Shown one piece after another: positions 21,482-62,112 of a DNA stretch of 64,000 bases. The stretch is from Apostichopus japonicus (Eukaryota; Echinodermata; Holothuroidea; Aspidochirotida; Stichopodidae), in contig NC_092582.1 in the NCBI RefSeq assembly GCF_037975245.1, positions 26,352,077-26,416,076 on the forward strand, read 5' to 3'. How positions within the stretch are numbered: position 1 is the first letter of the stretch; each line of letters begins with the position of its first letter. Position numbers and translations under genes: made by a program. The notes beneath the pieces were generated by a model that made no database searches, was not told where the DNA came from, and saw only the letters and a list, made by a program, of their open reading frames with translations.

Positions 21482-21560
<79 letters not shown>

Positions 21561-21869
21561 GAAAATCGTAATGAGTTGGAAAATCCAGAACAGTGAAAAA
21601 ACTTCCAGCCTCAACCGGAATTCGAACCCGGGCCTCCCACTTTGTACGCGGACACCCTAACCAACTATAGGCCATGGACGCTGATTGTATGTCCAGAGGT
21701 TCGAAACCGGTAAGGATGGTCGTAATTCCACTATAGGCGTTCGTCACTATATATAAACAAAAAAAATTTAAATCTACACTTGCCTTTTCATAAAGTTTTT
21801 CATCATGCATCACACATGATATATAAATAGAGAAAATAAGACATACGTACCAGTCAATGCAGGTGCCAT
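18564..21869 (-). CDS. Monocarboxylate transporter-like protein (SLC16/MCT family, MFS)
   Basis: A complete gene in five exons: 21869-21851 (ATG, MAPALT), 21413-21234, 20898-20755, 20044-19187 and 18694-18564 (stop TGA at 18566). Every junction is phase 1 with GT-AG ends, giving 443 residues, near the usual 450-500. Membrane segments occur in each exon: [18 protein letters not shown] (TM1), [16 protein letters not shown] and [19 protein letters not shown] (TM2-3), [13 protein letters not shown], then the acidic TM6-7 loop ([13 protein letters not shown]) and the C-terminal half with [11 protein letters not shown], ending in [12 protein letters not shown] and a short basic tail. The family carries lactate, pyruvate and other monocarboxylates across the plasma membrane, mostly with protons. 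The usual DGGWGW signature before TM1 is not recognisable, so substrate and subfamily cannot be assigned. The long open frame upstream of exon 4 (20045-20282) is intron read-through. Confidence 0.85.
21431..21557. repeat. (TA)n microsatellite in transporter intron 1
   Basis: About 125 bp of nearly pure TA, interrupted by GCC near 21481. It abuts the 3' end of the SINE and may have grown from the SINE tail. Open frames reading Tyr-Ile repeats across it are artefacts. Confidence 0.95.
21558..21712 (-). mobile_element. tRNA-derived SINE with a (TA)n tail
   Basis: On the minus strand the sequence has an A-box-like TGGCCTATAGTTGGTTAGGG and, about 30 bp later, a B box GGTTCGAATTCC, the pol III promoter of tRNA-type SINEs. 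The tRNA cloverleaf is degenerate. A tRNA-unrelated body follows (GAAGTTTTTTCACTG), then the 3' end runs into (TA)n. It lies in the first intron of the transporter, in the same orientation. Confidence 0.65.
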
Positions 21870-25703: not shown

Positions 25704-26049
25704 GTGTATCAATATGACAGATCACCTGATAACTGTGTTTGCGTAGACAGGTTACGGAATGACCGGACTGAACCTGGCCGACAGAGCTAGCAAACAGCAA
25801 ATTATACTCTAAAGTAGGTATAATGCGATCACCTGGCTGTAACGTGACAAACCGTGTGAATGATGAAGGCAAAGTGGGTAATATAGGATAGCATACAGTA
25901 ACACTTGGAAGAGTCCAAGTTAACGTGTTTTCTATTTATGCAAGTGCGTTGATTGTCCAAACAATTCAAATTACAATTCTCAATACTGGCGTACACATGA
26001 TTGACAAGGTGGAGAAGGGGTGGGGAGGGACTTTTTTCACGAATGAATC

Positions 26050-29000
26050 AATACAAACCTTAATACTACCCGAATCAAGCAGAACAGCAAAAACTGTGGA
26101 CTTCCAATAATTGCTAAGTAAATCAAACAGTATCACAATTTTGTCTAATTAAATGACCATCATATATCAGAATGCAAGGCACATTTTTCTTTAGTTTTGT
26201 TGAGTTTTCATGACAATCGAAGTGGGTCTACTATCAGCAGCAGGCGCATTCCGGCAGCGCCCTCATCTCCTACTTGCAAAAAATACTACACTAAACAGCG
26301 AAAACAGCCAAAATGACAACCCCATTTAATTGCTCAATTTAACCCCGTGATAATTTTTGTGCCAGCAATTGACCATCATAAATGAATGTAGGGGACATTA
26401 TTCTTTCATTTTCATGACTTTTCATGACAATCGAAGGGGGTCTACTATCAGCAGCAGGCGGATTCCGGCAGCGCCCTCATCGGCTCAATGCAAAAATACT
26501 ACACTAAACAGCGAAAACAGCTATAATGGCAACCCCCATTAATTGCTCAATTTAACCCCGTGATAATTTTTTTTCCATCAAATGACCATCATAAATGAAT
26601 GTAAAGGACATTATTCTTTCGTTTTCATGACTTTTCATGACAATCGAAGGGGGTCTACTATCAGCAGCAGGCGCATTCCGACAGCGCCCTCATCGGCTAG
26701 TTGCAAAAATTATACACTAAACAGCGAAATCAGCCAAAATGACAACCCCAATTAATTGCTCAATTTAACCCCGTGATAATTTTTGTGCCATCAAATGACC
26801 ATCATAAATGACTGTAGGGGACACTACTCTTTCGTTTTCATGACTTTTCATGACAATCGAAGGGGGTCTACTATCAGCAGCAGGCGGATTCCGGCAGCGC
26901 CCTCATCTCCTACTTGCAAAAAATACTACACTAAACAGCGAAAACAGCCAAAATGACAACCCCAATTAATTGCTCAATTTAATCCCGTGATAATTTTTGT
27001 GCCATCAAATGACCTTTCTCAATGCATTTGAGGGACATTATTCTCTCGTTTTCATGACATTTCATGACAATCGAAGGGGGTCTACTATCAGCAGCAGGCG
27101 GATTCCGGCAGCGCCATCATCAGCTAGTTGCAAAAATACTACACTAAAGAGCAAAAACAGCCAAAATGACAACCCCCATTAATTGCTCAATTTAACCCCG
27201 TGATAATTTTTTTGCCATCAAATGACCATTCTCTATGCATTTAAGGGACATAATTCCCTCGTTTTCATGACTTTTCATAACAATCGAAGGGGGTCTACTA
27301 TCAGCAGCAGGCGGATTCCGGCAGCGCCCTCATCGGCTAGTTGCAAAAATACTACATTAAAGGGCGAAAAAAAGCCAAAATGACAACCCCAATTAATTGC
27401 TCAATTTAACCCAGTGATAATTTTTTTGCCATCAAATGACCATCATAAATGAATGTAAAGGACATTATTCTTTCGTTTTCATGACTTTTCATGACAATCG
27501 AAGGGGGTCTACTATCAGCAGCAGGCGCATTCCGGCAGCGCCCTCATCGGCTAGTTGCAAAAATTATACACTAAACAGCGAAATCAGCCAAAATGACAAC
27601 CCCAATTAATTGCTCAATTTAACCCCGTGATAATTTTTGTGCCATCAAATGACCATCATAAATGACTGTAGGGGACACTACTCTTTCGTTTTCATGACTT
27701 TTCATGACAATCGAAGGGGGTCTACTATCAGCAGCAGGCGGATTCCGGCAGCGCCCTCATCTCCTACTTGCAAAAAATACTACACTAAACAGCGAAAACA
27801 GCCAAAATGACAACCCCAATTAATTGCTCAATTTAATCCCGTGATAATTTTTGTGCCATCAAATGACATTTCTCAATGCATTTGAGGGACATTATTCTTT
27901 CGTTTTCATGACATTTCATGACAATCGAAGGGGGTCTACTATCAGCAGCAGGCGGATTCCGGCAGCGCCATCATCAGCTAGTTGCAAAAATACTACACTA
28001 AAGAGCAAAAACAGCCAAAATGACAACCCCCATTAATTGCTCAATTTAACCCCGTGATAATTTTTTTGCCATCAAATGACCATTCTCTATGCATTTAAGG
28101 GACATAATTCCCTCGTTTTCATGACTTTTCATAACAATCGAAGGGGGTCTACTATCAGCAGCAGGCGGATTCCGGCAGCGCCCTCATCTCCTACTTGCAA
28201 AAAATACTACACTAAACAGCGAAAACAGCCAAAATGACAACCCCAATTAATTGCTCAATTTAACCCCGTGATAATTTTTGTGCCATCAATTGACCATCAT
28301 AAATGAACGTAAAGGACATTATTCTTTCGTTTTCATGACTTTTCATGACAATCGAAGGGGGTCTACTATCAGCAGCAGGCCCATTCCGACAGCGCCATAA
28401 TCGGCTAGTTGCAAAAATACTACACTAAACAGCGAAAACAGCTATAATGGCAACCCCCATTAATTGCTCAATTTAACACCGTGATAATTTTTGTGCCATC
28501 AAATGAATATCATAAATGACTGTAGGGGACACTACTCTTTCGTTTTCATGACTTTTTATGACAATCGAAGGGGGTCTACTATCAGCAGCAGGCGCATTCC
28601 CGCAGCGCCCTCATCGGCTAGTTGCAAAAATTATACACTAAACAGCGAAAACAGCCAAAATGACAACCCCAATTAATTGCTCAATTTAACCCCGTGATAA
28701 TTTTTGTGCCATCAAATGACCATCATAAATGACTGTAGGGGACACTACTCTTTCGTTTTCATGACTTTTCATGACAATCGAAGGGGGTCTACTATCAGCA
28801 GCAGGCGGATTCCGGCAGCGCCCTCATCTCCTACTTGCAAAAAATACTACACTAAACAGCGAAAACAGCCAAAATGACAACCCCAATTAATTGCTCAATT
28901 TAACCCCGTGATAATTTTTGTGCCATCAATTGACCATCATAAATGAACGTAAAGGACATTATTCTTTCGTTTTCATGACTTTTCATGACAATCGAAGGGG

Positions 29001-32000
29001 GTCTACTATCAGCAGCAGACGCATTCCCGCAGCGCCCTCATCGGCTAGTTGCAAAAATACTACACTAAACAGCGAAAACAGCCAAAATGACAACCCCAAT
29101 TAATTGCTCAATTTAACCCCGTGATAACTTTTCTGCCATCAAATGACCATCATAAATGAATGTAAAGTACACTACTCTTTCGTTTTCATGACATTTCATG
29201 ACAATCGAAGGGGGTCTACTATCAGCAGCAGGCGCATTCCGGCAGCGCCATCATCAGCTAGTTGCAAAAATACTACACTAAAGAGCGAAAACAGCAAAAT
29301 TGACAACCCCCATTAATTGCTCAATTTAACCCCGTGATAATTTTTGTGCCAGCAAATGACCATTCTCAATCCATTTAAGGGACATAATTCTCTCGTTTTC
29401 ATGACTTTTCATAACAATCGAAGGGGGTCTACTATCAGCAGCAGGCGGATTCCGGCAGCGCCCTCATCCGATCCATGCAAAGTACTACACTAAACAGCGA
29501 AAACAGCTAAAATGACAACCCCCATTAATTGCTCAATTTAACACCGTGATAATTTTTGTGCCATCAAATGACCATCATAAATGAATGTAAAGGACATTAT
29601 TCTTTCGTTTTCATGACTTTTCATGACAATCGAAGGGGGTCTACTATCAGCAGCAGGCGCATTCCGGCAGCGCCCTCATCGGCTAGTTGCAAAAATTATA
29701 CACTAAACAGCGAAAACAGCCAAAATGAAAACCCCAATTAATTGCTCAATTTAACCCCGTGATAATTTTTATGCCATCAAATGACCATCATAAATGACTG
29801 TAGGGGACACTACTCTTTCGTTTTCATGACTTTTCATGACAATCGAAGGGGGTCTACTATCAGCAGCAGGCGCATTCCGGCAGCGCCCTCATCGGCTAGT
29901 TGCAAAAATTATACACTAAACAGCGAAAACAGCCAAAATGACAACCCCAATTAATTGCTCAATTTAACCCCGTGATAATTTTTGTGCCATCAAATGACCA
30001 TCATAAATGACTGTAGGGGACACTACTCTTTCGTTTTCATGACTTTTCATGACAATCGAAGGGGGTCTACTATCAGCAGCAGGCGGATTCCGGCAGCGCC
30101 CTCATCTCCTACTTGCAAAAAATACTACACTAAACAGCGAAAACAGCCAAAATGACAACCCCAATTAATTGCTCAATTTAATCCCGTGATAATTTTTGTG
30201 CCATCAAATGACCTTTCTCAATGCATTTGAGGGACATTATTCTCTCGTTTTCATGACATTTCATGACAATCGAAGGGGGTCTACTATCAGCAGCAGGCGG
30301 ATTCCGGCAGCGCCATCATCAGCTAGTTGCAAAAATACTACACTAAAGAGCAAAAACAGCCAAAATGACAACCCCCATTAATTGCTCAATTTAACCCCGT
30401 GATAATTTTTTTGCCATCAAATGACCATTCTCTATGCATTTAAGGGACATAATTCCCTCGTTTTCATGACTTTTCATAACAATCGAAGGGGGTCTACTAT
30501 CAGCAGCAGGCGGATTCCGGCAGCGCCCTCATCGGCTAGTTGCAAAAATACTACATTAAAGGGCGAAAAAAAGCCAAAATGACAACCCCCATTAATTGCT
30601 CAATTTAACCCCGTGATAATTTTTGTGCCATCAATTGACCATCATAAATGAACGTAAAGGACATTATTCTTTCGTTTTCATGACTTTTCATGACAATCGA
30701 AGGGGGTCTACTATCAGCAGCAGGCGGATTCCGGCAGCGCCATCATCGGCTAGTTGCAAAAATACTACACTAAACAGCGAAAACAGCTATAATGGCAACC
30801 CCCATTAATTGCTCAATTTAACCCCGTGATAATTTTTGTGCCATCAAATGACCATCATAAATGAATGTAAAGGACATTATTCTTTCGTTTTCATGACTTT
30901 TCATGACAATCGAAGGGGGTCTACTATCAGCAGCAGGCGGATTCCGGCAGCGCCCTCATCTCCTACTTGCAAAAAATACTACACTAAACAGCGAAAACAG
31001 CCAAAATGACAACCCCAATTAATTGCTCAATTTAACACCGTGATAATTTTTGTGCCATCAAATGACCATCATAAATGACTGTAGGGGACACTTTTCTTTC
31101 GTTTTCATGACTTTTCATGACAATCGAAGGGGGTCTACTATCAGCAGCAGGCGGATTCCGGCAGCGCCCTCATCTCCTACTTGCAAAAAATACTACACTA
31201 AACAGCGAAAACAGCCAAAATGACAACCCCAATTAATTGCTCAATTTAACCCCGTGATAATTTTTGTGCCATCAATTGACCATCATAAATGAACGTAAAG
31301 GACATTATTCTTTCGTTTTCTTGACTTTTCATGACAATCGAAGGGGGTCTACTATCAGCAGCAGGCCCATTCCGGCAGCGCCATCATCGGCTAGTTGCAA
31401 AAATACTACACTAAACAGCAAAAACAGCTATAATGGCAACCCCCATTAATTGCTCAATTTAACCCCGTGATAATTTTTGTGCCATCAAATGACCATCATA
31501 AATGAATGTAAAGGACATTATTCTTTCGTTTTCATGACTTTTCATGACAATCGAAGGGGGTCTACTATCAGCAGCAGGCGCATTCCGGCAGCGCCCTCAT
31601 CTCCTACTTGCAAAAAATACTACACTAAACAGCGAAAACAGCCAAAATGACAACCCCAATTAATTGCTCAATTTAACCCCGTGATAATTTTTGTGCCATC
31701 AAATGACCATCATAAATGACTGTAGGGGACACTACTCTTTCGTTTTCATGACATTTCATGACAATCGAAGGGGGTCTACTATCAGCAGCAGGCGGATTCC
31801 GGCAGCGCCCTCATCTCCTACTTGCAAAAAATACTACACTAAACAGCGAAAACAGCCAAAATGACAACCCCAATTAATTGCTCAATTTAACCCCGTGATA
31901 ATTTTTGTGCCATCAATTGACCATCATAAATGAACGTAAAGGACATTATTCTTTCGTTTTCATGACTTTTCATGACAATCGAAGGGGGTCTACTATCAGC

Positions 32001-34441
32001 TGCAGGCGCATTCCCGCAGCGCCCTCATCGGCTAGTTGCAAAAATTATACACTAAACAGCGAAAACAGCCAAAATGACAACCCCAATTAATTGCTCAATT
32101 TAACCCCGTGATAATTTTTGTGCCATCAAATGACCATCATAAATGAATGTAAAGGACACTACTCTTTCGTTTCCATGACTTTTCATGACAATCGAAGGGG
32201 GTCTACTATCAGCAGCAGGCGCATTCCGGCAGCGCCATCATCAGCTAGTTGCAAAAATACTACACTAAAGAGCAAAAACAGCCAAAATGACAACCCCCAT
32301 TAATTGCTCAATTTAACCCCGTGATAATTTTTTTGCCATCAAATGACCATTCTCTATGCATTTAAGGGACATAATTCCCTCGTTTTCATGACTTTTCATA
32401 ACAATCGAAGGGGGTCTACTATCAGCAGCAGGCGGATTCTGGCAGCGCCCTCATCGGCTAGTTGCAAAAATACTACATTAAAGGGCGAAAAAAAGCCAAA
32501 ATGACAACCCCCATTAATTGCTCAATTTAACCCCGTGATAATTTTTGTGCCATCAATTGACCATCATAAATGAACGTAAAGGACATTATTCTTTCGTTTT
32601 CATGACTTTTCATGACAATCGAAGGGGGTCTACTATCAGCAGCAGGCGGATTCCGGCAGCGCCATCATCGGCTAGTTGCAAAAATACTACACTAAACAGC
32701 GAAAACAGCTATAATGGCAACCCCCATTAATTGCTCAATTTAACCCCGTGATAATTTTTGTGCCATCAAATGACCATCATAAATGAATGTAAAGGACATT
32801 ATTCTTTCGTTTTCATGACTTTTCATGACAATCGAAGGGGGTCTACTATCAGCAGCAGGCGGATTCCGGCAGCGCCCTCATCTCCTACTTGCAAAAAATA
32901 CTACACTAAACAGCGAAAACAGCCAAAATGACAACCCCAATTAATTGCTCAATTTAACCCCGTGATAATTTTTGTGCCATCAATTGACCATCATAAATGA
33001 ACGTAAAGGACATTATTCTTTCGTTTTCTTGACTTTTCATGACAATCGAAGGGGGTCTACTATCAGCAGCAGGCTCATTCCGGCAGCGCCATCATCGGCT
33101 AGTTGCAAAAATACTACACTAAACAGCAAAAACAGCTATAATGGCAACCCCCATTAATTGCTCAATTTAACCCCGTGATAATTTTTGTGCCATCAAATGA
33201 CCATCATAAATGAATGTAAAGGACATTATTCTTTCGTTTTCATGATTTTTCATGACAATCGAAGGGGGTCTACTATCAGCAGCAGGCGCATTCCGGCAGC
33301 GCCCTCATCTCCTACTTGCAAAAAATACTACACTAAACAGCGAAAACAGCCAAAATGACAACCCCAATTAATTGCTCAATTTAACACCGTGATAATTTTT
33401 GTGCCATCAAATGACCATCATAAATGACTGTAGGGGACACTACTCTTTCGTTTTCATGACATTTCATGACAATCGAAGGGGGTCTACTATCAGCAGCAGG
33501 CGGATTCCGGCAGCGCCCTCATCTCCTACTTGCAAAAAATACTACACTAAACAGCGAAAACAGCCAAAATGACAACCCCAATTAATTGCTCAATTTAACC
33601 CCGTGATAATTTTTGTGCCATCAATTGACCATCATAAATGAACGTAAAGGACATTATTCTTTCGTTTTCATGACTTTTCATGACAATCGAAGGGGGTCTA
33701 CTATCAGCTGCAGGCGCATTCCCGCAGCGCCCTCATCGGCTAGTTGCAAAAATTATACACTAAACAGCGAAAACAGCCAAAATGACAACCCCAATTAATT
33801 GCTCAATTTAACCCCGTGATAATTTTTGTGCCATCAAATGACCATCATAAATGAATGTAAAGGACACTACTCTTTCGTTTCCATGACTTTTCATGACAAT
33901 CGAAGGGGGTCTACTATCAGCAGCAGGCGCATTCCGGCAGCGCCATCATCAGCTAGTTGCAAAAATACTACACTAAAGAGCGAAAACAGCAAAAATGACA
34001 ACCCCCATTAATTGCTCAATTTAACCCCGTGATAATTTTTGTGCCATCAAATGACCATTCTCTATGCATTTAAGGGACATAATTCCCTCGTTTTCATGAC
34101 TTTTCATAACGATCGAAGGGGGTCTACTATCAGCAGCAGGCGGATTCCGGCAGCGCCCTCATCGGCTCAATGCAAAAATACTACACTGAGGAGCGAAAAA
34201 AAGCAAAAATGACAACCCCAATTAATCGCTCAATATAACCCCGTGATAATTTTTGTGCCATCAAATGACCATTCTCAATGCATTTAATTAACATTTTTCT
34301 CTCGTTTTCATGACATTTCATGACAATCGAAGGGGGTCTACTATCAGCAGCAGGCGGATTCCGGCAGCGCCCTCATCGGCTAATTGCAAAAATACTACAA
34401 TAAAGAACAGAAACATCAACAATGACAGCCCCCATAATTGC
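26050..34441 (+). repeat. 213-bp satellite array, left arm (about 39 copies)
   Basis: A near-constant 213-214 bp unit repeats head to tail. Landmarks are GACAATCGAAGGGGGTCTAC, CAGCAGCAGGCG, TTCCGGCAGCGCC and CCGTGATAATTTTTGTGCC. Units differ in blocks, and the variants recur with larger periods: CAGCTGCAGG at about 31999 and 33707, and TTTCCATGAC at about 32170 and 33878, both 1708 bp (8 units) apart. An 854-bp (4-unit) block repeats near 26.6-28.3 kb. Outer and inner end units are the most diverged. Each unit holds a short open frame of about 57 codons (see findings), not counted as a gene. Confidence 0.95.
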
Positions 34442-36531
34442 TGTGAGACTTAACTATGTTGTTTGAAAGATAAGTTATTCGAAACGGGTTAACAAATTAC
34501 TATCACCAACCGTTGTGGAGTTATCAGCGTTTAACCGAAATTGGATAATTGGAACCGTTCACTTTAACTTTGAAGTTGCCTGAAAACTAGAGCTGTGGAT
34601 GTAAAAATTGCCCCAATCGTCTCTGTCGTTTATTGATCTACGAATTTATATTCTAATACTTTTCCTCTAAGTGAGGGCGCTATTTCATACAGCAATTTCC
34701 TATTTAATGAAATCATTAGAAATTTACGCAGGATATGTAAAATGTTTTTCCGTATCTGATGAGTGTATTTTAAAGTAAATTAAGACTCAGAATACTTTGT
34801 TATTAAGTGCACTTTATATTAAAGTAAAGTAACTACTAATTTAACATACTTTCTTTAGAGATGCCTTGGCACAAATTAATTCATTACACCATTAATACAA
34901 AATGTATGCGGTGAAAGTGTTGTGAAAACTTTCATAATGAACTACTCCGGTCTTCTACATAATCTGCATACACCATCCTATTGGCAACCGTCGGGGAAAA
35001 GAAGACAACACTGTGAAAATTAGTTTTCAAACATGCTTTCGGAGGTGGGGGATGTTGAGCCCATTCCATTTTAAAGTAGGTGTCTAGAAGTGCATGAGTG
35101 TCGTAGTTGATTACATTTGTCATTTTTCTTCTGTAAATTTAAAACGAGGTGGGAGGGGGGGGGGGTGGGTTGCACAATACATCCATAAAGGTGAATTTTC
35201 AAAACCTCCCAAAAGAAAGAGATTCTGTAGTAATTTTGTAATAGACAGAAAATGAAATGAAAAAGACATACTCAAATACACTCAAGAAAGATACAGTCGA
35301 CGAAATAATAAGCTTGCTACAGTTGCATTTATGTACAACTACTTTAATTAGTTCTTGCCACATACGCCATGCACGTTTCTGGCTTTATGTACATTACACA
35401 AAATGAAACTCGTTTCAACTTCTAGGTGCTGTTTTTTCTGCATTATTTAAAGTAGCACACCTTGTGAGGATACTCACATCATAAAATCAGGCACAAACTA
35501 TCCAGGTATACTTATTAAAACCACATCTCGGGAGCATGCTGGATGAGGAAGATAACAAATATTCAACATATTCATTTCACGGCAGTGCATTGCATGATGG
35601 GAAATATTCGTTTCACATAAAATTTGTTGATCAAAGCCTTTGTTTTTCTGTATTATCTAGACACACACGTAAATGGCACGTGTAAACACTTGGGTGTCTG
35701 TTTTTTTTTAAGTTTACTAAATCTAACCTGACACGGGGTGTTGTAAAATTCCGATGTCAAATAATGCATAACATTTAAGAAACAGCAAACATTTCGGTTG
35801 TATTTTTTGTGATATTATACCATGTAATAACCGTGCAGAAAGATGAATGAGGATGGAGGGCCCAAAGGCAGTCCAAAAATGAAATAAATGCAGAATGTAA
35901 ACCACCTCCATAAATTCTACGATCTTCTTTTTTCCATCGTTATTATTCCTCGCAAAGAACTATAGTCTTTGAAGATAGTTAAGATAGATACTTTGTGAAA
36001 AGAGAAAAGCAAATTACCATAAACATTATACTAGCATGAAGAAAACCTTCTTAAACATGTTTTCCTACCCACCCTGCAGGTTAGACCAGTAAACCGGTCT
36101 TAACTGAAGTCCTGCCTGTAAGACAGCTGATATTTGCAGACCTCATTGTAGCTTTTAATACGGTTTCTCTTAGTGTAATTTTCGATCTTAAGAATAAAGT
36201 TAATTTTACAGTAGAAATACACAGGACTTAAATGATTAATTCAGCGTGTTTACATGTACGATGCTTGTTGCAAAGTTGACATCAGAGTAAACAAGGTACT
36301 ATATAGACCAAATAAGGTTAAACAATTTTGCCATTAAATTACCGTCATAATCGAATGTAAGGGATATTATTGTTTTGTTTTAGTTACATATGGGATAATC
36401 AAATCGGATGTTTTTCTTTCGGTTACAAACGCTGGCCACACATACAACACACTACAAGGGGTTGCTCCCGTATACATAGCGCAGATGCTTAGTTTATAGT
36501 TTGACCTCTTATGTATTGATCATAGAAGCTC
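34442..36531. other. Core of the foldback element, left side; no gene seen
   Basis: AT-rich sequence between the left arm and the 3' end of the transposase-like gene. Only a lone satellite-unit relic at 36318-36382 stands out. It should contain the gene's 3' UTR; no poly(A) signal was fixed. Confidence 0.5.
36318..36382 (+). repeat. Solitary degenerate piece of the 213-bp satellite unit
   Basis: TTTTGCCATTAAATTACCGT, then a CATAAT-GAATGTAAGGG-like stretch and ATTATTGTTTTGTTTT, aligns to the part of the unit from TTTTTGTGCCATCAAATGACC to TTCTTTCGTTTTC. It lies about 1.9 kb inside the left arm, in the arm's orientation. Confidence 0.6.
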
Positions 36532-39500
36532 CTAACTACGGGAAAGTATTGTAGTCGCTATGCGTCGTCTCTCGTAAGGTATATCATTCCATTTGACGTC
36601 TTTATTCAAACCCGTTGCGCTTTCGGCCAAGAGGCAAGTAAATACGCCGCAGTCACTCATGTTTCCTTGTTTGGCTGCGTCAGTTTTCATTCGAAAACGC
36701 CATTCATCTAGATTAAGAGATCTCTCAGTATTTGCGATCAATAAAAATTGTTTGATATGGTCGAGGTGTGTTTTGTTGTTCGTATTATTAAGAGAATCGT
36801 AGTAGACAACCTCGCGCTGAATGTTATCCACCACCACTAAAGTCCAATGAGAAACAGAATTTATGGGAATTAATAAGAAATCTTGCTGAAATATATCGGA
36901 ATTGCTACACCACCTATAAGCTTTGTCGTACCCATCGTTCAACAGGCTAGAAAAAAAGAATGTTGAGAAGGGGAATACCTTTGTGTTTAAAGATTTCTGA
37001 GCTGCCTCTGATAAAAGATTAAGATAAAAGTTAATGATATTGTCGTTTAACCACCCGTCCGGCTCCATCAGCAACTTCAAGTCGTTCACCATAACGTTAA
37101 TGCCAAATCCCCTGGTCACGGGTCGTCGTTGTGGGTTAAATAGGTCTTCGGCTACCTCGTCCTCCGTCGTCAAATCGATAATATCATCGGCACATTCTAT
37201 ATTTTTCTCAATGTTTTCCGTTGATCGATCCTGCTCAATAACAGGTGAGCGATTGTCATGTTTACCTTCTTTAGTTATCTGTGAATGTCCAGTGGTATGG
37301 TCAGATGTGCTAGTAGGGTTGCATACTTTCTCGTGGTACATGTCGTCCTTGGTCTGGGTTTTGCGCGTTTGTGTGACGAAACTTGAGTTAGACAGTGTTG
37401 GAGTCGTCGGTGAATTTTGTGTGTCAACATTGTCAACCTTTTCGTATACACATATGTATGCGTTATTAGCTGTTACTGTATGCAATGTCGACCCCAGGCT
37501 TGTATTGTCGTCTGCCACTGCCCATCCTGTCGAAGTTTTAAACAATGTTTGGTAATGTCCAGTACCAGTACTCTCACCAATGTGTTGAACCACAGTAGAC
37601 AAAGCATACACGGTGCATATCTTAGTAGGGATAACTAAATACTCTTCAATCTCTACAAAGCTACTGTCCTTTAATATTTGTTTACTTTTGCTATCGTAGT
37701 TATAACGTAGCAAGTGGACTATGAGCACTGGAGGTATTACGGTTAAAGACCTACTGATATCAAAAGTTTTATTTTTTTTACAGATATCACAATTAATAAA
37801 AGCAGAATCAGCGTTAAAATTGCAACAAATCAAGTCACTCATTGTGGTGTCGAATCTTGTGTTAGATATGGCTACCTGAAACATACAACCTGTTTCCTTT
37901 TTGATCTTTACACTACTGCACGACCTACACTTTGAATTCGTTTCCATCGTAAAAAGGATTTTGTCTGTCATACGCAAATGCGAGAGTAGTTGTATTGGTC
38001 CCTTAAGGAAAAATTCGCTGGCATCACACTGCGTACCTCTTTCAAAATCGCACAATGCGCACATAACTTTAAGAGTATGGATCATTTCGCTATCACTTAC
38101 AACCCTGCCGTGAAATAAGCTTCTCGATATATCTAGCAAAGTGTTAAGTCGCGAGTCACTCACGGATAAGGTACTTTCCCGGAAACATCTGTCTATGCTG
38201 CCAATACGAATAAATGACTGCAAAACTGAACTGAACCAGCAGTTATTTTCTAGATTTTGAAGCGGGGTGAACATAGGAACAACGTTGTCATATACGTTGT
38301 GACATTCGCTTGCCATGTCTCCACCTGTATATTCATTAATATTAACATTAGAAAGCACATTTCGTTCTTCATGAACGTTCTTATGGGGTGATTTTTGATA
38401 TACTGAACCCTGTGAATGTGATCTTTTTCGCGACCATTTTTCACGTATTAAGTTGGTGTTGCGTTTATCACCTGACTTATAGAAGTGTTTTACTGCATCT
38501 GAAAAAATAATTTCTAATCCACGAGAGTCTTTTGTTAATTCCTCGACAAGTTCGTCTATGCGATGAAATTTTCGTTTCCCTAACTGTATTTGCTTTAAAA
38601 CCCCCATACGTTGCTCCGAATGAGCTATAGACCGTGGAAACGAAATGCTGCTTGGTTGTCCATTTGCAACCTGCCATTTATGAAGAGAACTTGGTAGCAT
38701 ATCTGACCAAAGTGGTGCAGATGGAAGCAGGATTCTCTGTATCTCTTTTAGGAAAGTTACACAAAAGTAGGAGTTATGGTCGTCTCCAGTAGGTACTCCG
38801 GTGTAGTGACTGTTTCTGCAATCGAGGCGACCTTTCTCTATAACTTTACTAAAATGTTCAGTGAAAGGGGAATTCATACGGGAAAGGAATGCATCTTCTG
38901 ACAAATTAGTGCTGTTATTGTCAGAGGCAAAGTCGGTGTTACCTACAAAGAGGGGAGATAGTTCGTCTTTCTGTCCATTACCTTCTATGGATAAAGCTGT
39001 TATTCTTTGGTGTAATCTCTTTAAGCAAGACGATACTAGGGGTGACGCGCATTGGGACGAAAGAACAACAGAAATATCATAAACAATACATGCGAATGCT
39101 TTCAGGGAGCACGCATTAACCAGTAAGCTCAAGCAAAACATTCCAAAACGGTAGTGTTTTTTGTAATGTTTTTTTGTTAAATCTTTGCAATTTTTCATAA
39201 AGTGACCAATACATGCATGCGGTAAGGTTTTGTTACAGTCTTCGTGTGTTAATTTGCCATTCAAAATACTCCATGCACGGTTTAGGAACTGTTTGTAAGT
39301 TTCGTTGTTGAAAACATGCATGGCAGCCAATAAGAATACCCATGCCCTATCACTGTTGATTTGTACAGGGGTTGATATGCTACCATGCCCAAATAAAAGT
39401 TTTTCTTTATGTCTAAAAACGTTTAACCAATTCATAATGACAGGTAGACTTTGATCTTCGGATAATAGTATGGACACCGGCAAGGTTGACTTACCCTTTG

Positions 39501-40554
39501 TTAAATTTCTAACAGACAACTCATAATACAAAATTTGCTTTTTACCATGGCCTCTGTCCAACACCCCACCGGTCGCATCCCAGAATACTACGTCTGTTCT
39601 ACACATATCGTGCCATACCCTTAGTCCTCCTTCCGTGAAACATATTATATACATCGGACTAACAGATATTTGTTGTATGAAGCCGGGAACCCTACCACGA
39701 TGGTTATATTTTAAACAGTACTTCTGCTGCTTTTTTAGAAGACTTTTGATTTCGTCTTCATCATCACGTTCCTTAGACCTACTCTCACTTGAAATTTTCT
39801 GCATGACAGACAGCGTCCTGCCACAGTCGTTTCTGTTACCCGATGCTATAACTTCTGAAGATTTAGAAGACAGATTCCGTAAAAGAACTTTCATTGGCTT
39901 CACACCCATTGAGAGGGTCTTTCCCGCTAATCTCCTATCTAAGCCCCTAATTGGCCGAGCATGGATGTCGTACATGCTGTGCTTCATGTTTCCATTGAAG
40001 TTCACCGTGCATGAAAAGTTTCTATCCATGGAAATGAGTACGCTTACGGAACAATCTGCAAATTTGCAATACCCCTTGGCCCGGAATATCGTTTCACTAG
40101 TGTTATTGTCTATAAGATAATGGTATTTAAACATGATTACACAATAAGGGTTTATTTTAGACATACCATCTACGAAATACTTTTGCCATTCCCCTGTGGG
40201 AAGACACCTACCGCGTCTTTTACTTAATACTGTATTATAAGTGTCTGCATTGATTGAAAATGTTCCCTTCTTGGGAAACTGCTTAATAACGTAGTCATCA
40301 TTATTTGCTTGTGATCCAGACAACACACTTAACGTCTTATTTGATACACGGCTGGCAACTTCTGTACTTTCATTCTTACATGAATCGGTGTTTGTATCAT
40401 TACATTCATGGCTTGATTTGGCGGTAGGAGGTTGCGGATGTACTATTTCACTCGAGTTCAAGTTTTCTTTCAACTTAACACCATCTTTATCATGGTGCAG
40501 CTGAAATACATACGTACTTTCCGTTGTTACACTTACCAATACCGCAATAAAATG
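36532..40554 (-). CDS. Transposase-like protein with USP deubiquitinase and Ulp1 SUMO-protease domains
   Basis: One uninterrupted 4-kb frame; residues are counted from position 40539 (a TTG, not an ATG). Residues 90-290 are basic and Cys-rich. Residues 310-450 resemble a MULE-type RNase-H fold: VVFWDATGG (Asp321), VQINSDRAW (Asp397) and LPHACIGHF (Cys443, His446); the third acidic residue is unassigned. Residues 755-1035 form a USP: LQNLENNCWFSSVLQ (Cys767), zinc-binding CRSC (871) and CDIC (917), GTGHYQTLF (His995) and WAVADDN. DDIIDLTTEDE (1119-1127) is a SUMO-interacting motif. Residues 1148-1335 are an Ulp1/C48 protease: GWLNDNIINFYL, SHWTLVVVD (His1231), YYDSL (Asp1248) and QGNMSDCGVF (Gln1291, Cys1297). 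All protease residues are intact. The first ATG is codon 126, so the N-terminus must come from elsewhere, probably the PHD exon upstream. The gene lies between inverted satellite arms, consistent with a mobile-element gene. Confidence 0.8.
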   Translation of the reverse strand, partial: HFIAVLVSVTTESTYVFQLHHDKDGVKLKENLNSSEIVHPQPPTAKSSHECNDTNTDSCKNESTEVASRVSNKTLSVLSGSQANNDDYVIKQFPKKGTFSINADTYNTVLSKRRGRCLPTGEWQKYFVDGMSKINPYCVIMFKYHYLIDNNTSETIFRAKGYCKFADCSVSVLISMDRNFSCTVNFNGNMKHSMYDIHARPIRGLDRRLAGKTLSMGVKPMKVLLRNLSSKSSEVIASGNRNDCGRTLSVMQKISSESRSKERDDEDEIKSLLKKQQKYCLKYNHRGRVPGFIQQISVSPMYIICFTEGGLRVWHDMCRTDVVFWDATGGVLDRGHGKKQILYYELSVRNLTKGKSTLPVSILLSEDQSLPVIMNWLNVFRHKEKLLFGHGSISTPVQINSDRAWVFLLAAMHVFNNETYKQFLNRAWSILNGKLTHEDCNKTLPHACIGHFMKNCKDLTKKHYKKHYRFGMFCLSLLVNACSLKAFACIVYDISVVLSSQCASPLVSSCLKRLHQRITALSIEGNGQKDELSPLFVGNTDFASDNNSTNLSEDAFLSRMNSPFTEHFSKVIEKGRLDCRNSHYTGVPTGDDHNSYFCVTFLKEIQRILLPSAPLWSDMLPSSLHKWQVANGQPSSISFPRSIAHSEQRMGVLKQIQLGKRKFHRIDELVEELTKDSRGLEIIFSDAVKHFYKSGDKRNTNLIREKWSRKRSHSQGSVYQKSPHKNVHEERNVLSNVNINEYTGGDMASECHNVYDNVVPMFTPLQNLENNCWFSSVLQSFIRIGSIDRCFRESTLSVSDSRLNTLLDISRSLFHGRVVSDSEMIHTLKVMCALCDFERGTQCDASEFFLKGPIQLLSHLRMTDKILFTMETNSKCRSCSSVKIKKETGCMFQVAISNTRFDTTMSDLICCNFNADSAFINCDICKKNKTFDISRSLTVIPPVLIVHLLRYNYDSKSKQILKDSSFVEIEEYLVIPTKICTVYALSTVVQHIGESTGTGHYQTLFKTSTGWAVADDNTSLGSTLHTVTANNAYICVYEKVDNVDTQNSPTTPTLSNSSFVTQTRKTQTKDDMYHEKVCNPTSTSDHTTGHSQITKEGKHDNRSPVIEQDRSTENIEKNIECADDIIDLTTEDEVAEDLFNPQRRPVTRGFGINVMVNDLKLLMEPDGWLNDNIINFYLNLLSEAAQKSLNTKVFPFSTFFFSSLLNDGYDKAYRWCSNSDIFQQDFLLIPINSVSHWTLVVVDNIQREVVYYDSLNNTNNKTHLDHIKQFLLIANTERSLNLDEWRFRMKTDAAKQGNMSDCGVFTCLLAESATGLNKDVKWNDIPYERRRIATTILSRS

Positions 40555-41065
40555 TTACATTAAAACCAGACTTTACCGTTGAAGGAATACGCATACAGCT
40601 GTAATGGTACCATTCATCACATTGCTTGCAATGGATGTACTGTCGTTTGTTATCATAATACGTTTGACAAGTGCAATACTTTCTTTTCATATTAATGCCG
40701 ACCCAATTACTTGAAAATCTTTCTGGCTTACGTTTCCTCTTTTCCCTTGGTTTCGTTCTTGTTGCTCCTTCTCCCGATTCTACCAGTAATCGTATGTTTC
40801 CTCTGTTATTACACCATATGCTCCGGAGGACCTTCACTGACCTCTTGAGATTTTTTGTCGACCAGCCCAGCTCCATAACGACACTCTCCCAGAAAGCTTT
40901 TGATGGTGATGAGGTAACCGTCACCTTTTTTCTCACTGACGAAATTGCGGCAGAGATCTTGGCATACTCGGTACACGCAGGTCGTCCTCGCTTGTGAGCA
41001 CCGCCCTTTAGCTGAGAGAAATCCCTTGTCGGTGATCGTTCCAGGAAATGTTCGTGTGACTCTTT
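40490..41065 (-). CDS. PHD-finger / AT-hook exon upstream of the transposase frame
   Basis: The frame is open from a TATAG acceptor-like site at 41066 to TGA at 40490; the first ATG is at 40876. It reads HKRGRPAC (AT-hook-like GRP core), then KAFWESVVMELGW, a basic stretch KPREKRKRKPE, and a PHD finger (CTCQTYYDN, HCKQCDEWYHYSCMRI, FYCGIGKC). PHD fingers bind histone tails and AT-hooks the DNA minor groove. It overlaps the 4-kb frame by about 50 bases in another frame. A GTAAGT donor at 40536 inside the last PHD codons suggests splicing onto the larger frame, but no acceptor in the right phase is convincing; an intron ending at 40501 would be only 36 nt and would lead to a stop. Whether it is a first exon or a separate small protein is open. 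Confidence 0.6.
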   Translation of the reverse strand, partial: KESHEHFLERSPTRDFSQLKGGAHKRGRPACTEYAKISAAISSVRKKVTVTSSPSKAFWESVVMELGWSTKNLKRSVKVLRSIWCNNRGNIRLLVESGEGATRTKPREKRKRKPERFSSNWVGINMKRKYCTCQTYYDNKRQYIHCKQCDEWYHYSCMRIPSTVKSGFNVTFYCGIGKCNNGKYVCISAAP

Positions 41066-42435
<1,370 letters not shown>

Positions 42436-43614
42436 CGCTCACCATTTCTTGGAGTTAAGGATCAACCTTTTTCTTTCTTTCGAATGCACGAGGTATATGC
42501 CTTTAAGTCATTTTTTTACTATACTTTGCCTCTCCTCATTCTTGAAATTTGTACGCAGTACATATGACAAATAGTGCATTTGGAGATGTTGTTCAGTTGG
42601 TGGTGTATTTTAACGGAAAATTTAACATTAGGCTGGACACTATATGCACATTAGAACATGGGCTACTTGTTTTGAGGTATAATGCCTGTGTCAAATGTTA
42701 TGCCTATATAAATATAGTGAGCCAGAAGTTAAAGCAGCTAAGGTCCAGGAATTTCGTTTTCATGAACAATTTGCTAATGACTTTTATTTTACTGGCAAGA
42801 TTAAAAAAAAACAAGCTGTCGCAGAGACATCAGTAAGCAGATATGGTATATGTGCCACTTTAAGAAAAGATCAATATATATCACGTTAACTTCACTATAC
42901 GGGACAACAATATTAGATCCATATGGCTGTCATATTCTAGCATTACAAAATTACTATCATATTCTAGCATTACAAAATACTTCAGGTTCTTGGCGACTAC
43001 GTTGCGTTAGATAGTGTAAAACCGCCTATACACCCCCATTTCATCTCAACAGTGAGTAATACTGTATAGAAACCAACCATAGCCTTAAAGGAATACCAAT
43101 TATACAAAACCATGATTTTAACATCAGTCAATACTACAAGGTATAACCACTTTCAATAATTAATTCACAAGGGAATACAAATATTGGCAGAAACTATAAC
43201 TAATCTATGTACTATGAAGGAAAAACTGAATGACTGATTACAACAAGTATGTTAATGATCCTATTCAGCAGATAAATCAACTTACGCCAAGATATGCGGC
43301 ATGAACTTCTAACCCCTAAAAGGGAATATGGTAAGAGAGTTACAAACACATACACACAGCGTATGGTCAAGTTAGTGCAATACAAAACTTAAGAACCATT
43401 AATTGTGTTTGTTATAAGCCTTCTTCACTCTGTATCATTGTAGGATATCTTTAATAGGCCAAATTGACGTTATATTTGTCAACTAAAGAGTTCCACAGAA
43501 TTATAAATATAAAAACCTGTCCATTTTACACACAATTAACACATTTAAAACTGGGCAATGATTTTAAAGTACTTTCTCCTTTCAGGTTGGCATATAGACA
43601 TGTAGCTAATATCT

Positions 43615-43676
<62 letters not shown>

Positions 43677-44186
43677 GTTAATTTGAAGTAAAATAGGGCC
43701 TATATATATATAGAACAACGACATTTCAGATGAATTATAATTTGTACAACTTTTGCGATTGGGCGCTCCCAATCTACGAAAAGCATGTATCTCCTATGAA
43801 ACCAGTTAACTTTAAACATTCCTTACTAAGACCAATTCAAGGCAAAAACTAGCTACCAAGTGATATCAGGTTTATTAAATGCATTCCGTATGGGTTTTTT
43901 CACGTAATGATATAGACATGATAAAGTAAGAAGATGGAAATAACATAAAATGAAAGCCACGATTTGCTCTGATTACTTACGGATATGTCGGAGGATATTT
44001 TTTCTTCCTGTTGCTTGATAAGTCATCCCATCATACCTCTACATCCTCGTCATCTGGCGTTTGGTATCGCACTTTCGTTAACATTGGATTTATTCATTAA
44101 CAACTAAAATATCGAGTAGAAACGGCTTGCTCCGCTAGGGGAAAGTGCTTCCATATTACTGACCACATCTATTTTAAGTATTTAGT
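42436..44186. other. Core of the foldback element, right side; no gene seen
   Basis: AT-rich, with a second pure (TA)n run at 43616-43674 and a CATATTCTAGCATTACAAAA duplication near 42940-42980. No coding frame recognised. Confidence 0.5.
43616..43674. repeat. (TA)n microsatellite
   Basis: About 29 uninterrupted TA units. Confidence 0.95.
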
Positions 44187-47100
44187 GTAGCACTATCTGT
44201 TCATTGAGCTATTGAGGGCGCTGCCGGAATCCGCCTGCTGCTGGTAGTAGACCCACTTCGATTGTCATGAAAAGTCATGAAAATGAAAGAATAATGTCCC
44301 CTACATTCATTTATGATGGTCATTTGATGGCACAAAAATTATCACGGGGTTATATTGAGCAATTAATGGGGGTTGTCATTTTTGCTGTTTTCGCTCTTTA
44401 GTGTAGTATTTTGCATTGAGCCGGTGAGGGCGCTGCCGGAATCCGCCTGCTGCTGATAGTAGACCCCCTTCGATTGTCATGAAATGTCGTGAACATGGAA
44501 GAATAGTGTCCCCTACATATATTGAGGGTGGTCATTTGATGGCACAAAAATTATCACGGGGTTATATTGAGCAATTAATGGTGGTTGTCATTTTTGCTGT
44601 TTTCGCTCTTTAGTGTAGTATTTTGCATTGAGCCGGTGAGGGCGCTGCCGGAATCCGCCTGCTGCTGATAGTAGACCCCCTTCGATTGTCATGAAATGTC
44701 GTGAACATGGAAGAATAGTGTCCCCTACATATATTGAGGGCGGTCATTTGATGGCACAAAAATTATCACGGGGTTAAATTGAGCAATTAATGGGGGTTGT
44801 CAGTTTTGCTGTTTTCGCTCTTTAGTGTAGTATTTTGCATTGAGTCGGTGAGGGCGCTGCCGGAATCCGCCTGCTGCTGCTGATAGTAGACCCCCTTCGA
44901 TTGTCATGAAATGTCGTGAACATGAAAGAATAGTGTCCCCTACATATATTGAGGGTGGTCATTTGATGGCACAAAAATTATCACGGGGTTAAATTGAGCA
45001 ATTAATGAGGGTTGCCATTATAGCTGTTTTCGCTCTTTAGTGTAGTATTTTTGCATTGAGCCGATGAGGGCGCTGCCGGAATCCGCTGCTGCTGATAGTA
45101 GACCCCCTTCGATTGTCATGAAAAGTCATGAAAATGAAAGAGTAGTGTCCCCTACAGTCATTTATGATGGTCATTTGCTGGCACAAAAATTATCACGGGG
45201 TTAAATTGAGCAATTAATGGGGGTTGTCATTTTTGCTGTTTTCGCTCTTTAGTGTAGTATTTTTGCATTGAGCCGATGAGGGCGCTGCCGGAATCCGCCT
45301 GCTGCTGGTAGTAGACCCCCTTCGATTGTCATGAAAAGTCATGAAAACGAAAGAGCAATGTCCTTTACATTCATTTATGATGGTCATTTGATGGCACAAA
45401 AATTATCACGGGGTTAAATTGAGCAATTAATGGGGGTTGCCATTATAGCTGTTTTCGCCCTTTAGTGTAGTATTTTTGCATTGAGCCGATGAGGGCGCTG
45501 CCGGAATCCGCCAGCTGCTGATAGTAGACCCCCTTCGATTATCATGAAATGTCGTGAACATGAAAGAATAGTGTCCCCTACATATATTGAGGGTGGTCAT
45601 TTGATGGCACAAAAATTATCACGGTGTTATATTGAGCAATTAATGGTGGTTGTCATTTTTGCTGTTTTCGCTCTTTAGTGTATTATTTTGCATTGAGCCG
45701 ATGAGGGCGCTGCCGGAATCCGCTGCTGCTGATAGTAGACCCCCTTCGATTGTCATGAAAAGTCATGAAAATGAAAGAATAATGTCCCCTACATTCATTT
45801 ATGATGGTCATTTGATGGCACAAAAATTATCACGGTGTTATATTGAGCAATTAATGGGGGTTGTCATTTTTGCTGTTTTCGCTCTTTAGTGTATTATTTT
45901 GCATTGAGCCGATGAGGGCGCTGCCGGAATCCGCCTGCTGCTGATAGTAGACCCCCTTCCATTATCATGAAATGTCGTGAACATGGAAGAATAGTGTCCC
46001 CTACATATATTGAGGGTGGTCATTTGATGGCACAAAAATTATCACGGGGTTATATTGAGCAATTAATGGTGGTTGTCATTTTTGCTGTTTTCGCTCTTTA
46101 GTGTAGTATTTTGCATTGAGCCGGTGAGGGCGCTGCCGGAATCCGCCTGCTGCTGATAGTAGACCCCCTTCGATTGTCATGAAATGTCGTGAACATGGAA
46201 GAATAGTGTCCCCTACATATATTGAGGGTGGTCATTTGATGGCACAAAAATTATCACGGGGTTAAATTGAGCAATTAATGGGGGTTGTCAGTTTTGCTGT
46301 TTTCGTTCTTTAGTGTAGTATTTTGCATTGAGCCGGTGAGGGCGCTGCCGGAATCCGCCTGCTGCTGATAGTAGACTCCCTTCGATTGTCATGAAATGTC
46401 GTGAACATGAAAGAATCGTGTCCCCTACATATATTGAGGGTGGTCATTTGATGGCACAAAAATTATCACGGGGTTAAATTGAGCAATTAATGAGGGTTGC
46501 CATTATAGCTGTTTTCGCTCTTTAGTGTAATATTTTTGCATTGAGCCGATGAGGGCGCTGCCGGAATCCGCTGCTGCTGATAGTAGACCCCCTTCGATTG
46601 TCATGAAAAGTCATGAAAACGAAAGAATAATGTTCCCTACATTCATTTATGATGGTCATTTGCTGGCACAAAAATTATCACGGGGTTAAATTGAGCAATT
46701 AATTGGGGTTGTCATTTTTGCTGTTTTCGCTCTTTAGTGTAGTATTTTTGCATTGAGCCGATGAGGGCGCTGCCGGAATCCGCCTGCTGCTGATAGTAGA
46801 CCCCCTTCGATTATCATGAAATGTCGTGAACATGGAAGAATAGTGTCCCCTTCATATATTGAGGGTGGTCATTTGATGGCACAAAAATTATCACGGGGTT
46901 AAATTGAGCAATTAATGGGGGTTGTCAGTTTTGCTGTTTTCGCTGTTTAGTGTAGTATTTTGCATTGAGCCGGTGAGGGCGCTGCCGGAATCCGCCTGCT
47001 GCTGATAGTAGACCCCCTTCGATTGTCATGAAATGTCGTGAACATGAAAGAATAGTGTCCCCTACATATATTGAGGGTGGTCATTTGATGGCACAAATAT

Positions 47101-48035
47101 TATCACGGGGTTATATTGAGCAATTAATGAGGGTTGCCATTATAGCTGTTTTCGCTCTTTAGTGTAGTATTTTTGCATTGAGCCGATGAGGGCGCTGCCG
47201 GAATCCGCTGCTGCTGATAGTAGACCCCCTTCGATTGTAATGAAAAGTCATGAAAATGAAAGAATAATGTCCCCTACATTCATTTATGATGGTCATTTGC
47301 TGGCACAAAAATTATCACGGGGTTAAATTGAGCAATTAATTGGGGTTGTCATTTTTGCTGTTTTCGCCCTTTAGTGTAGTATTTTTGCATTGAGCCGATG
47401 AGGGCGCTGCCGGAATCCGCCTGCTGCTGATAGTAGACCCCCTTCGATTGTCATAAAAAGTCATGAAAACGAAAGAGCAATGTCCTTTACATTCATTTAT
47501 GATGGTCATTTGATGGCACAAAAATTATCACGGGGTTAAATTGAGCAATTAATGGGGGTTGCCATTATAGCTGTTTTCGCCCTTTAGTGTAGTATTTTTG
47601 CATTGAGCCGATGAGGGCGCTGCCGGAATCCGCCTGCTGCTGATAGTAGACCCCCTTCGATTGTCATGAAATGTCGTGAACATGAAAGAATAGTGTCCCC
47701 TACATATATTGAGGGTGGTCATTTGATGGCACAAAAATTATCACGGGGTTAAATTGAGCAATTAATGAGGGTTGCCATTATAGCTGTTTTCGCTCTTTAG
47801 TGTAGTATTTTTGCATTGAGTCGATGAGGGCGCTGCCGGAATCCGCCTGCTGCTGATAGTAGACCCCCTTCGATTGTCATGAAAAGTCATGAAAATGAAA
47901 GAATGATGTCCCCTACATTCATTTATGATGGTCATTTGCTGGCACAAAAATTATCACGGGGTTATATTTAGCGAAACATTGGGGTTGTCAAATTACCTGT
48001 TTTCGCTCTGTAGTGTAATATTTCTGCATTGCGAT
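44187..48035 (-). repeat. 213-bp satellite array, right arm (about 18 copies, inverted)
   Basis: The same unit as the left arm, in reverse complement (GGCGCTGCCGGAATCC, GTAGACCCCCTTCGATTGTC, GGCACAAAAATTATCACGG). Period is about 212 bp. Several units carry a 3-bp change in the GCTGCTG run, and one has an extra CTG (near 44876). Blocks recur at about 10 units (45214 and 47336). Right-arm units keep the CATTGAGC variant at the place where left-arm units mostly have other sequence. Confidence 0.95.
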
Positions 48036-48960
48036 TTTATAAAATACCTTATTAAATCATATTCAATCCTCATCATTTTTCAGACCATCAGTAATATCCA
48101 AGCATAAAAAAGTAATGTGATGACTCACAAAATCTCCCCAAAATCAATAAAGCAGGTTAGTTTAGGGTTATTTTCCGAAGTTTAACCTCTCAGATCGACG
48201 TACACTAATCTAACTTTTTTAGTGATACGTCAATAACCCCGGAGTTTATTTTCCAATCTCCCTACGAGCAAACAGACGAAGAATATCTAACATCAATACA
48301 AACTTCACTTGTCAATTGGGAAATTGAGCGTAAAGAATGAGGTACAGTTTGCGCCTTCTTTTAATTCCTTAAAATTAACAGACTAAAAACTTCGCCAATT
48401 TTGTCTATTTCCCCTGTCCCTTCGTTCTCAAGAGCATCTCACTTCGCATGGTAACGTTTTTGCTGTTAACAACATTTTCCGCATATTTCACATAATTTGC
48501 GGTCAGCCTTTGACCCAAACAGCCAACCTCCGCGACTACAGTGTTGAACTTTAGCGACGACGTTTTTTTTCGAGATACCTTCCTTTGCTTCCTTGGAATG
48601 CTCGATTGTCTGTGCAACCTGCATGAATTCAATACCCTATTCGAGGTAGACGCTGTTCATTTTCAGCGATCTGTCAGAGGTCTGTTGGCCAGCTTCAGCC
48701 CGGTTACGGAATGTACGTACCTGCAGTACGTGTTCCCTTCTTTACTTCCATGCACTAAGATATAGAGCTTAGGCGACCCAAGGAGCTGCTACTCTAACAG
48801 CTCCCTGGGCGACCTAAGTACACATGCATCCATATGTTGTAACGCTGATACGTTACATAGGATTTTTCCATTCGTACGAGGTCTGCTCTCAAGTGACGGT
48901 GGTGCTGACTCTGGAGCGATAGGAGCATGCTCTCCCTGTTAGTATTTAGTCTAGCAAAAG
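48036..48960. other. Upstream region of ALDH9A1, presumed promoter and 5' UTR
   Basis: CpG dinucleotides become more frequent from about 48480 than in the flanking satellite. A hairpin lies at 48768-48818. No TATA box was chosen. Short frames at 48405-48765 on both strands show no resemblance to known proteins. Confidence 0.4.
48768..48818. repeat. 51-bp hairpin upstream of ALDH9A1
   Basis: CTTAGGCGACCCAAGGAGCTG, a 9-nt loop, then CAGCTCCCTGGGCGACCTAAG: 21-bp arms that pair with few mismatches. It could be a tiny foldback remnant or an RNA hairpin in the 5' region; function unknown. Confidence 0.6.

Positions 48961-62112
<13,152 letters not shown>

Follow-up and report, generated by a model that had tools for sequence, protein, structure and literature searches.

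Foldback FB elements of Drosophila and TU elements of sea urchin carry short repeat units in long terminal inverted repeats (TIRs), and their arms reach the termini. Foldbacks of both hosts are named in PMC4079207, in which Tetris of Drosophila virilis is described with a flanking domain, inverted tandem repeats of about 220 bp and an inner domain. Rehavkus transposons are described as having a PHD finger, a 9-bp target-site duplication (TSD) and repeats before the TIR, the named hosts being insects and annelids (PMC6446971). In Rehavkus-1_TC of Tribolium castaneum (Kapitonov, Gentles and Jurka 2006), a 164-bp satellite lies in the inverted termini, in arms of mostly five and eight monomers (PMC10218199). 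A review puts the first reported Pack-MULEs at 7 kb or less, most of them at 1-2 kb, and recalls mobile segments between Drosophila foldback elements (PMC6431247). Here, we describe an element in a 64-kb stretch (the window) of the 671.6-Mb Apostichopus japonicus genome, C22:26352077-26416076 (C-numbers are contigs of this genome), in which two inverted arrays of a 213-bp satellite flank a transposase-like gene. We consider it, with a probability of about 0.9, to represent a family of cut-and-paste type DNA transposons of the Rehavkus/MULE-like kind, a satellite-armed unit with its gene.

The window element and its copies

The left array had a period of 213 bp with 38.8 copies and 91% matches, and the right array a period of 212 bp with 18.0 copies and 92% matches, in Tandem Repeats Finder (TRF). 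One-unit BLAST gave 39 matches on the plus strand (left array) and 19 on the minus strand (right array; two partial), and none in the window outside both arrays at an expect value (E) of 1e-3 or below. A stray satellite-like stretch in the interior (Table 1) surfaced only when it was itself used as the query. Beyond the arrays, homology among copies extended to the TIR, over about 390 bp (left) and 673 bp (right), ruling out the arrays as true termini; as judged from the aligned copies, they are subterminal, inside outer domains and TIRs. The homology ended at the TIR and a 9-bp TSD, which sets the borders of the window element (Table 1). The imperfect TIRs, ACCGGACTGAACCTGGCCGACAGAG and ACCGGGCTGAAGCTGGCCAACAGAC, matched to a degree reached in none of 20000 letter shuffles. 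The C14 copy kept only positions 1-225 of the left outer domain (97% identity).

The main open reading frame (ORF) of the window gene matched the Pfam models UCH (E=8e-21) and Ulp1/C48 (E=2.2e-26). No Pfam transposase model was matched at E<=10 in the window ORFs or at E<=1 in six relatives; the predicted fold contained a DDE RNase-H-like core of IS256/MULE type. A 1509-aa frame in which the PHD part is joined to the main ORF was open in four other copies, and a database protein from A. japonicus was 100% identical over the aligned part. Going by the domain names, USP and Ulp1 probably remove ubiquitin or SUMO from the transposase or from chromatin.

Near-identical genes were found on C3, C14, C4 and C8 and remnants on C11 and C10 (35 of 141 candidates scored). 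The arm test took in the seven gene copies of >=96% identity, with degenerate copies at C16:30.02 Mb and C17:22.04 Mb outside the count. Six of the seven sat between two inverted 213-bp arrays, with left/right unit matches of 39/19 (C22), 26/19 (C3), 23/34 (C14), 42/34 (C4), 15/40 (C8) and 13/23 (C11); for the seventh, on C10 (11.2 kb), one arm was read (8 unit matches) and two right ends were mapped. The six elements measured 13.8 (C11, gene partly deleted), 20.3, 22.5, 22.9, 27.6 and 34.9 kb (C8). The C8 element at 17.3 Mb held a 12.7-kb insertion in its interior (oriented positions 9095-21761) with no ORF over 200 aa. The arrangement was repeated at all six loci with the gene or a remnant, each with a perfect 9-bp TSD, demonstrating at the level of sequence that outer domains, both satellite arms and gene were inserted as one unit.

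The preliminary description had proposed a single mobile unit of about 22 kb at 26050-48035, with about 39 and 18 units in opposite orientations around a transposase-like PHD-USP-Ulp1 gene. The two arrays were recovered far beyond chance, the gene was borne out by the Pfam matches, and the mobile unit stood, with TIRs and perfect TSDs outside the arrays at six loci. Its borders were too narrow, and the arrays, taken there as the element ends, were not. The target duplications of 8-10 bp expected at the outer borders were found as 9 bp at the corrected ones. Copies of the gene lacking the satellite, named there as contrary evidence, mostly failed to appear: six of seven had both arms and the seventh at least the one arm read.

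Table 1. Features of the window element (window positions) and of related copies and target sites elsewhere (contigs)
Feature	Position	Strand	Remarks
Complete element	25762..48704		22,943 bp; borders at the end of homology among six copies, with TIR and TSD there
Left TSD TACGGAATG	25753..25761		identical to 48705-48713
Right TSD TACGGAATG	48705..48713		
Left TIR, 25 bp	25762..25786	+	21/25 identical to right TIR read inward
Right TIR, 25 bp	48680..48704	-	
Left unique outer domain (Lend)	25762..26150	+	94-98% in C3, C4, C8, C11
Left arm, ~39 tandem units of 213 bp	26151..34442	+	TRF and BLAST
Interior, gene on minus strand	34443..44201	-	conserved among copies
Stray satellite-like stretch in interior, 56 bp	36326..36381	+	82% identical to units
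Main ORF, 1340 aa: WRKY-like domain (weak), predicted DDE RNase-H-like core, USP, Ulp1	36532..40554	-	Pfam; predicted fold
Upstream ORF with PHD finger	40490..41065	-	PF00628, E=2.7e-7
Probable upstream exon	42041..42182	-	approximate, by eye; stretch present in the predicted protein P0001
Probable first exon with start codon	44035..44084	-	approximate, by eye; N-terminus of P0001
Right arm, inverted, 18 tandem units of 212 bp	44202..48031	-	TRF and BLAST
Right unique outer domain (Rend)	48032..48704	+	97-99% in C3, C4, C8, C10, C11, C14
C8 giant, 76 kb	C8:36962927-37038928		
C9 giant, 83 kb	C9:36447244-36530526		
Second C9 giant, 80.6 kb	C9:36358889-36439478		low flank and first bases of high flank common to other C9 copy
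Mini copy, 2.3 kb	C22:16568477-16570751		right end, ~6 units, head-to-head join, left end
Perfect TSDs	C22 window, C3, C14		TACGGAATG; CAAAGAAAT; CTATTGAAC
Perfect TSDs	C4, C8, C11		AACGGGAAT; TGTGAATGT; CTGTGTTTG
Perfect TSD	C17		CTTTCGCAG, after 13-bp repeat of TIR tip (tandem repeat at L036 7583-7608)
Perfect TSDs, further sites	C4, C3, C9, C8		ACTGTGCTC; GTACAGTCC; GAATAATAG; CAATTTATG
Imperfect TSD	C20		GGTGATCAA, overlaps element's last GGT
Imperfect TSDs	C10, C22-mini		8 bp, or 9 if terminal base shared

A genome census with both outer domains (a lower bound, 40 of 98 candidates scored) gave at least 16 left ends (>=225 bp at >=94%; two split by an insert) and at least 18 right ends (>=577 bp at >=89%), paired by distance and orientation into at least 17 elements. 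The pair at C17:1.418/1.478 Mb and two giant copies on C9 shared flanks by their ends and counted as one site each. Of the 15 independent sites, 14 were testable for a TSD (the C17 pair is without the last part of the right end): 11 had perfect 9-bp duplications and 3 imperfect ones. In the C20 and C3:11.45-Mb copies an insert of about 4.9 kb interrupted the left domain at an identical position and the TSDs differed, indicating that this nested insert probably travelled with the element. Older relatives are indicated by weaker paired end matches (69-86%), among them those at C18, C7, C9:5.8 Mb and C12. At C8:15986935-15987049, the first 115 bp of Lend had a 98% match without a mapped partner, and several pieces of 38-89 bp at 88-92% were likewise unplaced.

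Transposases 39-40% identical to that of the window were found on C12, at C8:40.4 Mb and at C20:28.4 Mb (family B); further families, at 31-32%, were present on C3/C16, C21, C7, C20, C2 and C1. The C20 copy (19,282 bp) had the TSD CGATCGCGA (1/1 tested), TIRs ACTCCGTAGAAGCTAGCGGACAATA and ATCGAGTTGAAGCTGGCGGACAATA identical at 19/25 positions, about 17 units of a 171-bp repeat on its left side, and seven inverted, degenerate copies on the right; in the C12 copy the left array numbered at least 24 such units. Between the two families, the right TIRs were identical at 17/25 positions (reached in 0/20000 shuffles) and the left TIRs at 13/25 (110/20000). The 171-bp and 213-bp units showed no similarity, with no match better than E 2.6, and a shared origin of the units was rejected. 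That two families follow one plan with different satellites suggests a tie between inverted arrays and transposons of this kind. A 45-bp minisatellite in 30 copies lay about 3.2 kb beyond the C20 element (C20:28364001-28365364).

Arm lineages and rearranged derivatives

Nearest neighbours were determined for 311 near-complete units of the six elements and the C10 copy (nhmmer matches covering model positions 8-205). The nearest neighbour lay in the same arm for 226 units and in the same-side arm of a different element for 80; for two units it lay in the opposite arm of the same element, and for three elsewhere. Because units clustered by side and not by element, the left and right arms are, as far as unit relationships tell, separate lineages carried with the element and changing by local duplication. 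With 2/311 units nearest to the opposite arm, homogenisation of an element's two arms by gene conversion was rejected.

The exact 22-base core of the unit occurred 323 times in the genome, and a reversed-pattern control 0 times. Mapped elements contained 285 of these matches, including all 100 places listed, and 38 were unplaced; in another unit search with 518 matches, those listed (40 of 63 candidates scored) also lay inside mapped elements by inspection. No free-standing array was seen among the placed core matches, with 38/323 unplaced; the satellite is therefore, on the placement of its copies, mainly or wholly element-borne. The unplaced matches may lie in partly read elements (C20, the C17 pair, C10, the giants) or be strays. 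The proposal that the element seeds satellite DNA thus found no free array in its favour, and the contrary expectation, that the satellite would form arrays unrelated to the gene, mostly failed as well. Among the sea-cucumber genome papers listed in the literature search, none contained the term 'satellite DNA'.

Two copies without the gene, on C17 (9.6 kb) and C4 (10.7 kb), retained about 2.1 and 0.6 kb of the interior, 84-93% identical and inverted relative to the ends. Units were scored with left and right models trained on the six elements, so that independent tests come only from the C4, C17 and mini copies. Beside Lend, 14/15 (C17) and 9/10 (C4) units were left-type; over the stretch covered of the other array, right-type units numbered 3/4 and 4/8 (mixed), respectively. 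The inverted interiors are as expected from exchange between inverted arms near the interior. The C17 and C4 copies share nearly the same deletion, which may thus be a single event, later multiplied. In the mini copy, 6/7 unit pieces scored right-type; the units run abruptly, head to head, into an inverted 78-bp piece of left type (48.0 vs 42.3 bits), after which comes the 225-bp left end. Together with the two right ends carried by the C10 copy, the assembled copies demonstrated arms of different length, inverted interiors, fused arms and doubled ends. Interior inversion and arm fusion, as recombination of inverted arms would give, lend indirect support to hairpin formation by the arms.

Mechanism and alternative explanations

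The PHD/DDE protein would bind the element ends and cut. Unequal exchange or slippage within each arm could make it grow and shrink, recombination of the inverted arms together could produce the inverted and fused derivatives, and the arms may have been retained because they are helpful in transposition.

A gene-bearing transposon might instead have landed by chance in a pre-existing satellite, or two arrays might simply happen to flank a gene. Satellite arrays commonly serve as insertion sites, but the arrays are enclosed by unique outer domains, TIRs and TSDs, the sequence common to the six copies past the TSDs is limited to scattered repeats of up to 790 bp that are out of line with the borders, and units cluster by side across loci; the external TSDs refute chance insertion, which keeps a negligible probability. 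The same applies to two arrays joined by an assembly artefact. Assembling long arrays is difficult and unit counts may be wrong, but six loci and the derivatives share the architecture with differing TSDs and per-arm unit counts, and an artefact would not produce one and the same join at many target sites, each duplicated independently; this excludes the objection, which the preliminary description had raised. Several observations weigh against the reading we favour. In the window copy, a short insertion puts the PHD part out of frame with the main ORF; the ratio of nonsynonymous to synonymous substitution rates (dN/dS) among the four open copies was 0.30-1.06 with few differences, so that coding constraint on the transposase is only suggested; the mean predicted local distance difference test score (pLDDT) of the structure model was 64.6; the PHD finger was present in three of six relatives scanned (P0002, P0003 and P0007, not P0006, P0009 and P0010); and neither movement nor an empty site was seen, joined flanks having been compared only with sequence gathered in the analysis. 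What the arms do is less certain. We tentatively suggest that they could be repeated docking or synapsis platforms for the transposase, as opposed to a passive by-product or a chromatin role. It is just as conceivable that tandem repeats grow in any long subterminal region and play no part in transposition: the right arm of family B is degenerate, arm length ranges from 13 to 42 units across six elements, and the mini copy has almost no left arm, yet an 8-9 bp duplication. The dissimilarity of the 213- and 171-bp units likewise speaks against docking, as does the best-conserved 30-bp block of the unit, only mildly above chance (reached in 36/5000 permutations). Against a passive origin, inverted arrays of ~160-220 bp units recur in two families here with unrelated units and, in the published descriptions, in Rehavkus-1_TC and Tetris.

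Three giant copies of 76-83 kb occupied two sites (Table 1). Five interior samples of the C8 giant gave no match to the window element except in AT-rich stretches, and four of them were searched: L064 (bases 1-160), L065, L067 and L068 (bases 100-250). L064 and L065 were common to the C8 and C9 giants. One of the two was 98-99% identical in both C9 giants, in the same orientation; elsewhere it had 30 matches, all <=91%, on C9 and C7. The other, a minisatellite, was present in both C9 giants at 93-94%, in the same orientation in all three giants. The simplest reading, and a strong lead from these interior samples, has a large stretch of host-like DNA carried inside an element that moved between C9 and C8. 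An origin by segmental duplication, or by swelling of smaller elements through nested insertions, is an unlikely explanation of these copies. In line with it, the shared flanks of the two C9 copies indicate that one is probably a duplicate, the minisatellite matches places outside the giants equally well, and two of the four samples, L067 and L068, were dispersed repeats with no match in the C9 giants among the matches listed (best 40 of 1472 and 40 of 357 candidates scored). However, the 9-bp TSDs of the C8 and C9 giants are perfect, differ from each other and sit precisely at the TIRs, the C8 giant starts with 213-bp units at both ends, and the 98-99% sample and the shared orientation of the minisatellite link the three giants. 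The 30 diverged copies of the giant-borne sequence cluster at C9 19.8-34.1 Mb and C7 13.9-14.1 Mb; these clusters are a possible source of captured DNA. A wider reading, which we offer tentatively, is that satellite arms are an essential, repeatedly re-invented transposon part, in which the unit is wholly replaced from one family to the next (213 vs 171 bp) and the plan of inverted arrays of ~160-220 bp units within short TIRs persists; recombination of the inverted arms would flip interiors, fuse arms, double ends, and lead to the capture of tens of kilobases of host DNA that moved as the 76-83 kb giants between C9 and C8. With 17 mapped copies, side-specific lineages and a chain of derivatives, arm function, the rate of array change, and inversion with cargo capture become addressable. 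If the giants hold up, they would be a very large cut-and-paste type unit in an animal.

Surroundings of the element and comparison with known systems

Elsewhere in the window, a 37-bp minisatellite (55078-56598; 41 copies, 91% matches) lay between aldehyde dehydrogenase exons at 53787-54146 and 59389-59733, and an 88/135-bp compound tandem repeat spanned 61063-62079. Reverse-transcriptase-like ORFs were found at 1-2536 and 6094-7134 (both by eye) and at 8367-10424 (RVT_1, E=1.3e-26).

The long inverted arms containing tandem repeats resemble those of Foldback FB and TU; here, however, the arms stop short of the termini, and on their outer side come a 25-bp TIR and unique domains that differ from each other. 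With Tetris, as described in PMC4079207, the element shares an outer domain followed by inverted repeats of about 220 bp and a TSD of 8-10 bp. Tetris has TIRs of up to 1,735 bp, compared with 25 bp here, and gave long free arrays, whereas none was seen here with 38/323 cores unplaced. Tetris, the best-known link between foldback-like elements and satellites, is also described there as non-autonomous with no known transposase, whereas the sea-cucumber element has five near-identical gene copies (four open, 1509 aa). Units of about 200 bp, regarded in the preliminary description as without precedent, have counterparts in the 220-bp repeats of Tetris (PMC4079207) and the 164-bp satellite of Rehavkus-1_TC (PMC10218199). 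Like Pack-MULEs, whose MULE-like ends can carry captured DNA (PMC6431247), the present ends may enclose foreign sequence, although the giants reach 76-83 kb and Pack-MULEs, as first reported there, at most 7 kb.

The PHD finger, the 9-bp TSD and mini- or satellite repeats before the TIR, the features given for Rehavkus, are all present in the sea-cucumber element, the repeats on both sides and with units of 213 bp (171 bp in family B). Rehavkus TIRs measure 26-400 bp; here about 25 bp are shared (21/25), with unlike sequence inward until the inverted arrays. Rehavkus-1_TC is given as 9.5 kb with five and eight monomers, whereas uninterrupted full copies here are 20-28 kb and the arms of six elements have 13-42 units; the host is an echinoderm, unlike the insects and annelids named for Rehavkus. 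The passages on Rehavkus in PMC10218199 and PMC6446971 make no mention of USP and Ulp1, of outer domains that differ from each other, or of giant or inverted derivatives. Judged by described structure, the element is, provisionally, best filed as Rehavkus-like; new here are the far longer arms, the unlike outer domains, USP and Ulp1, and the many rearranged and giant derivatives.
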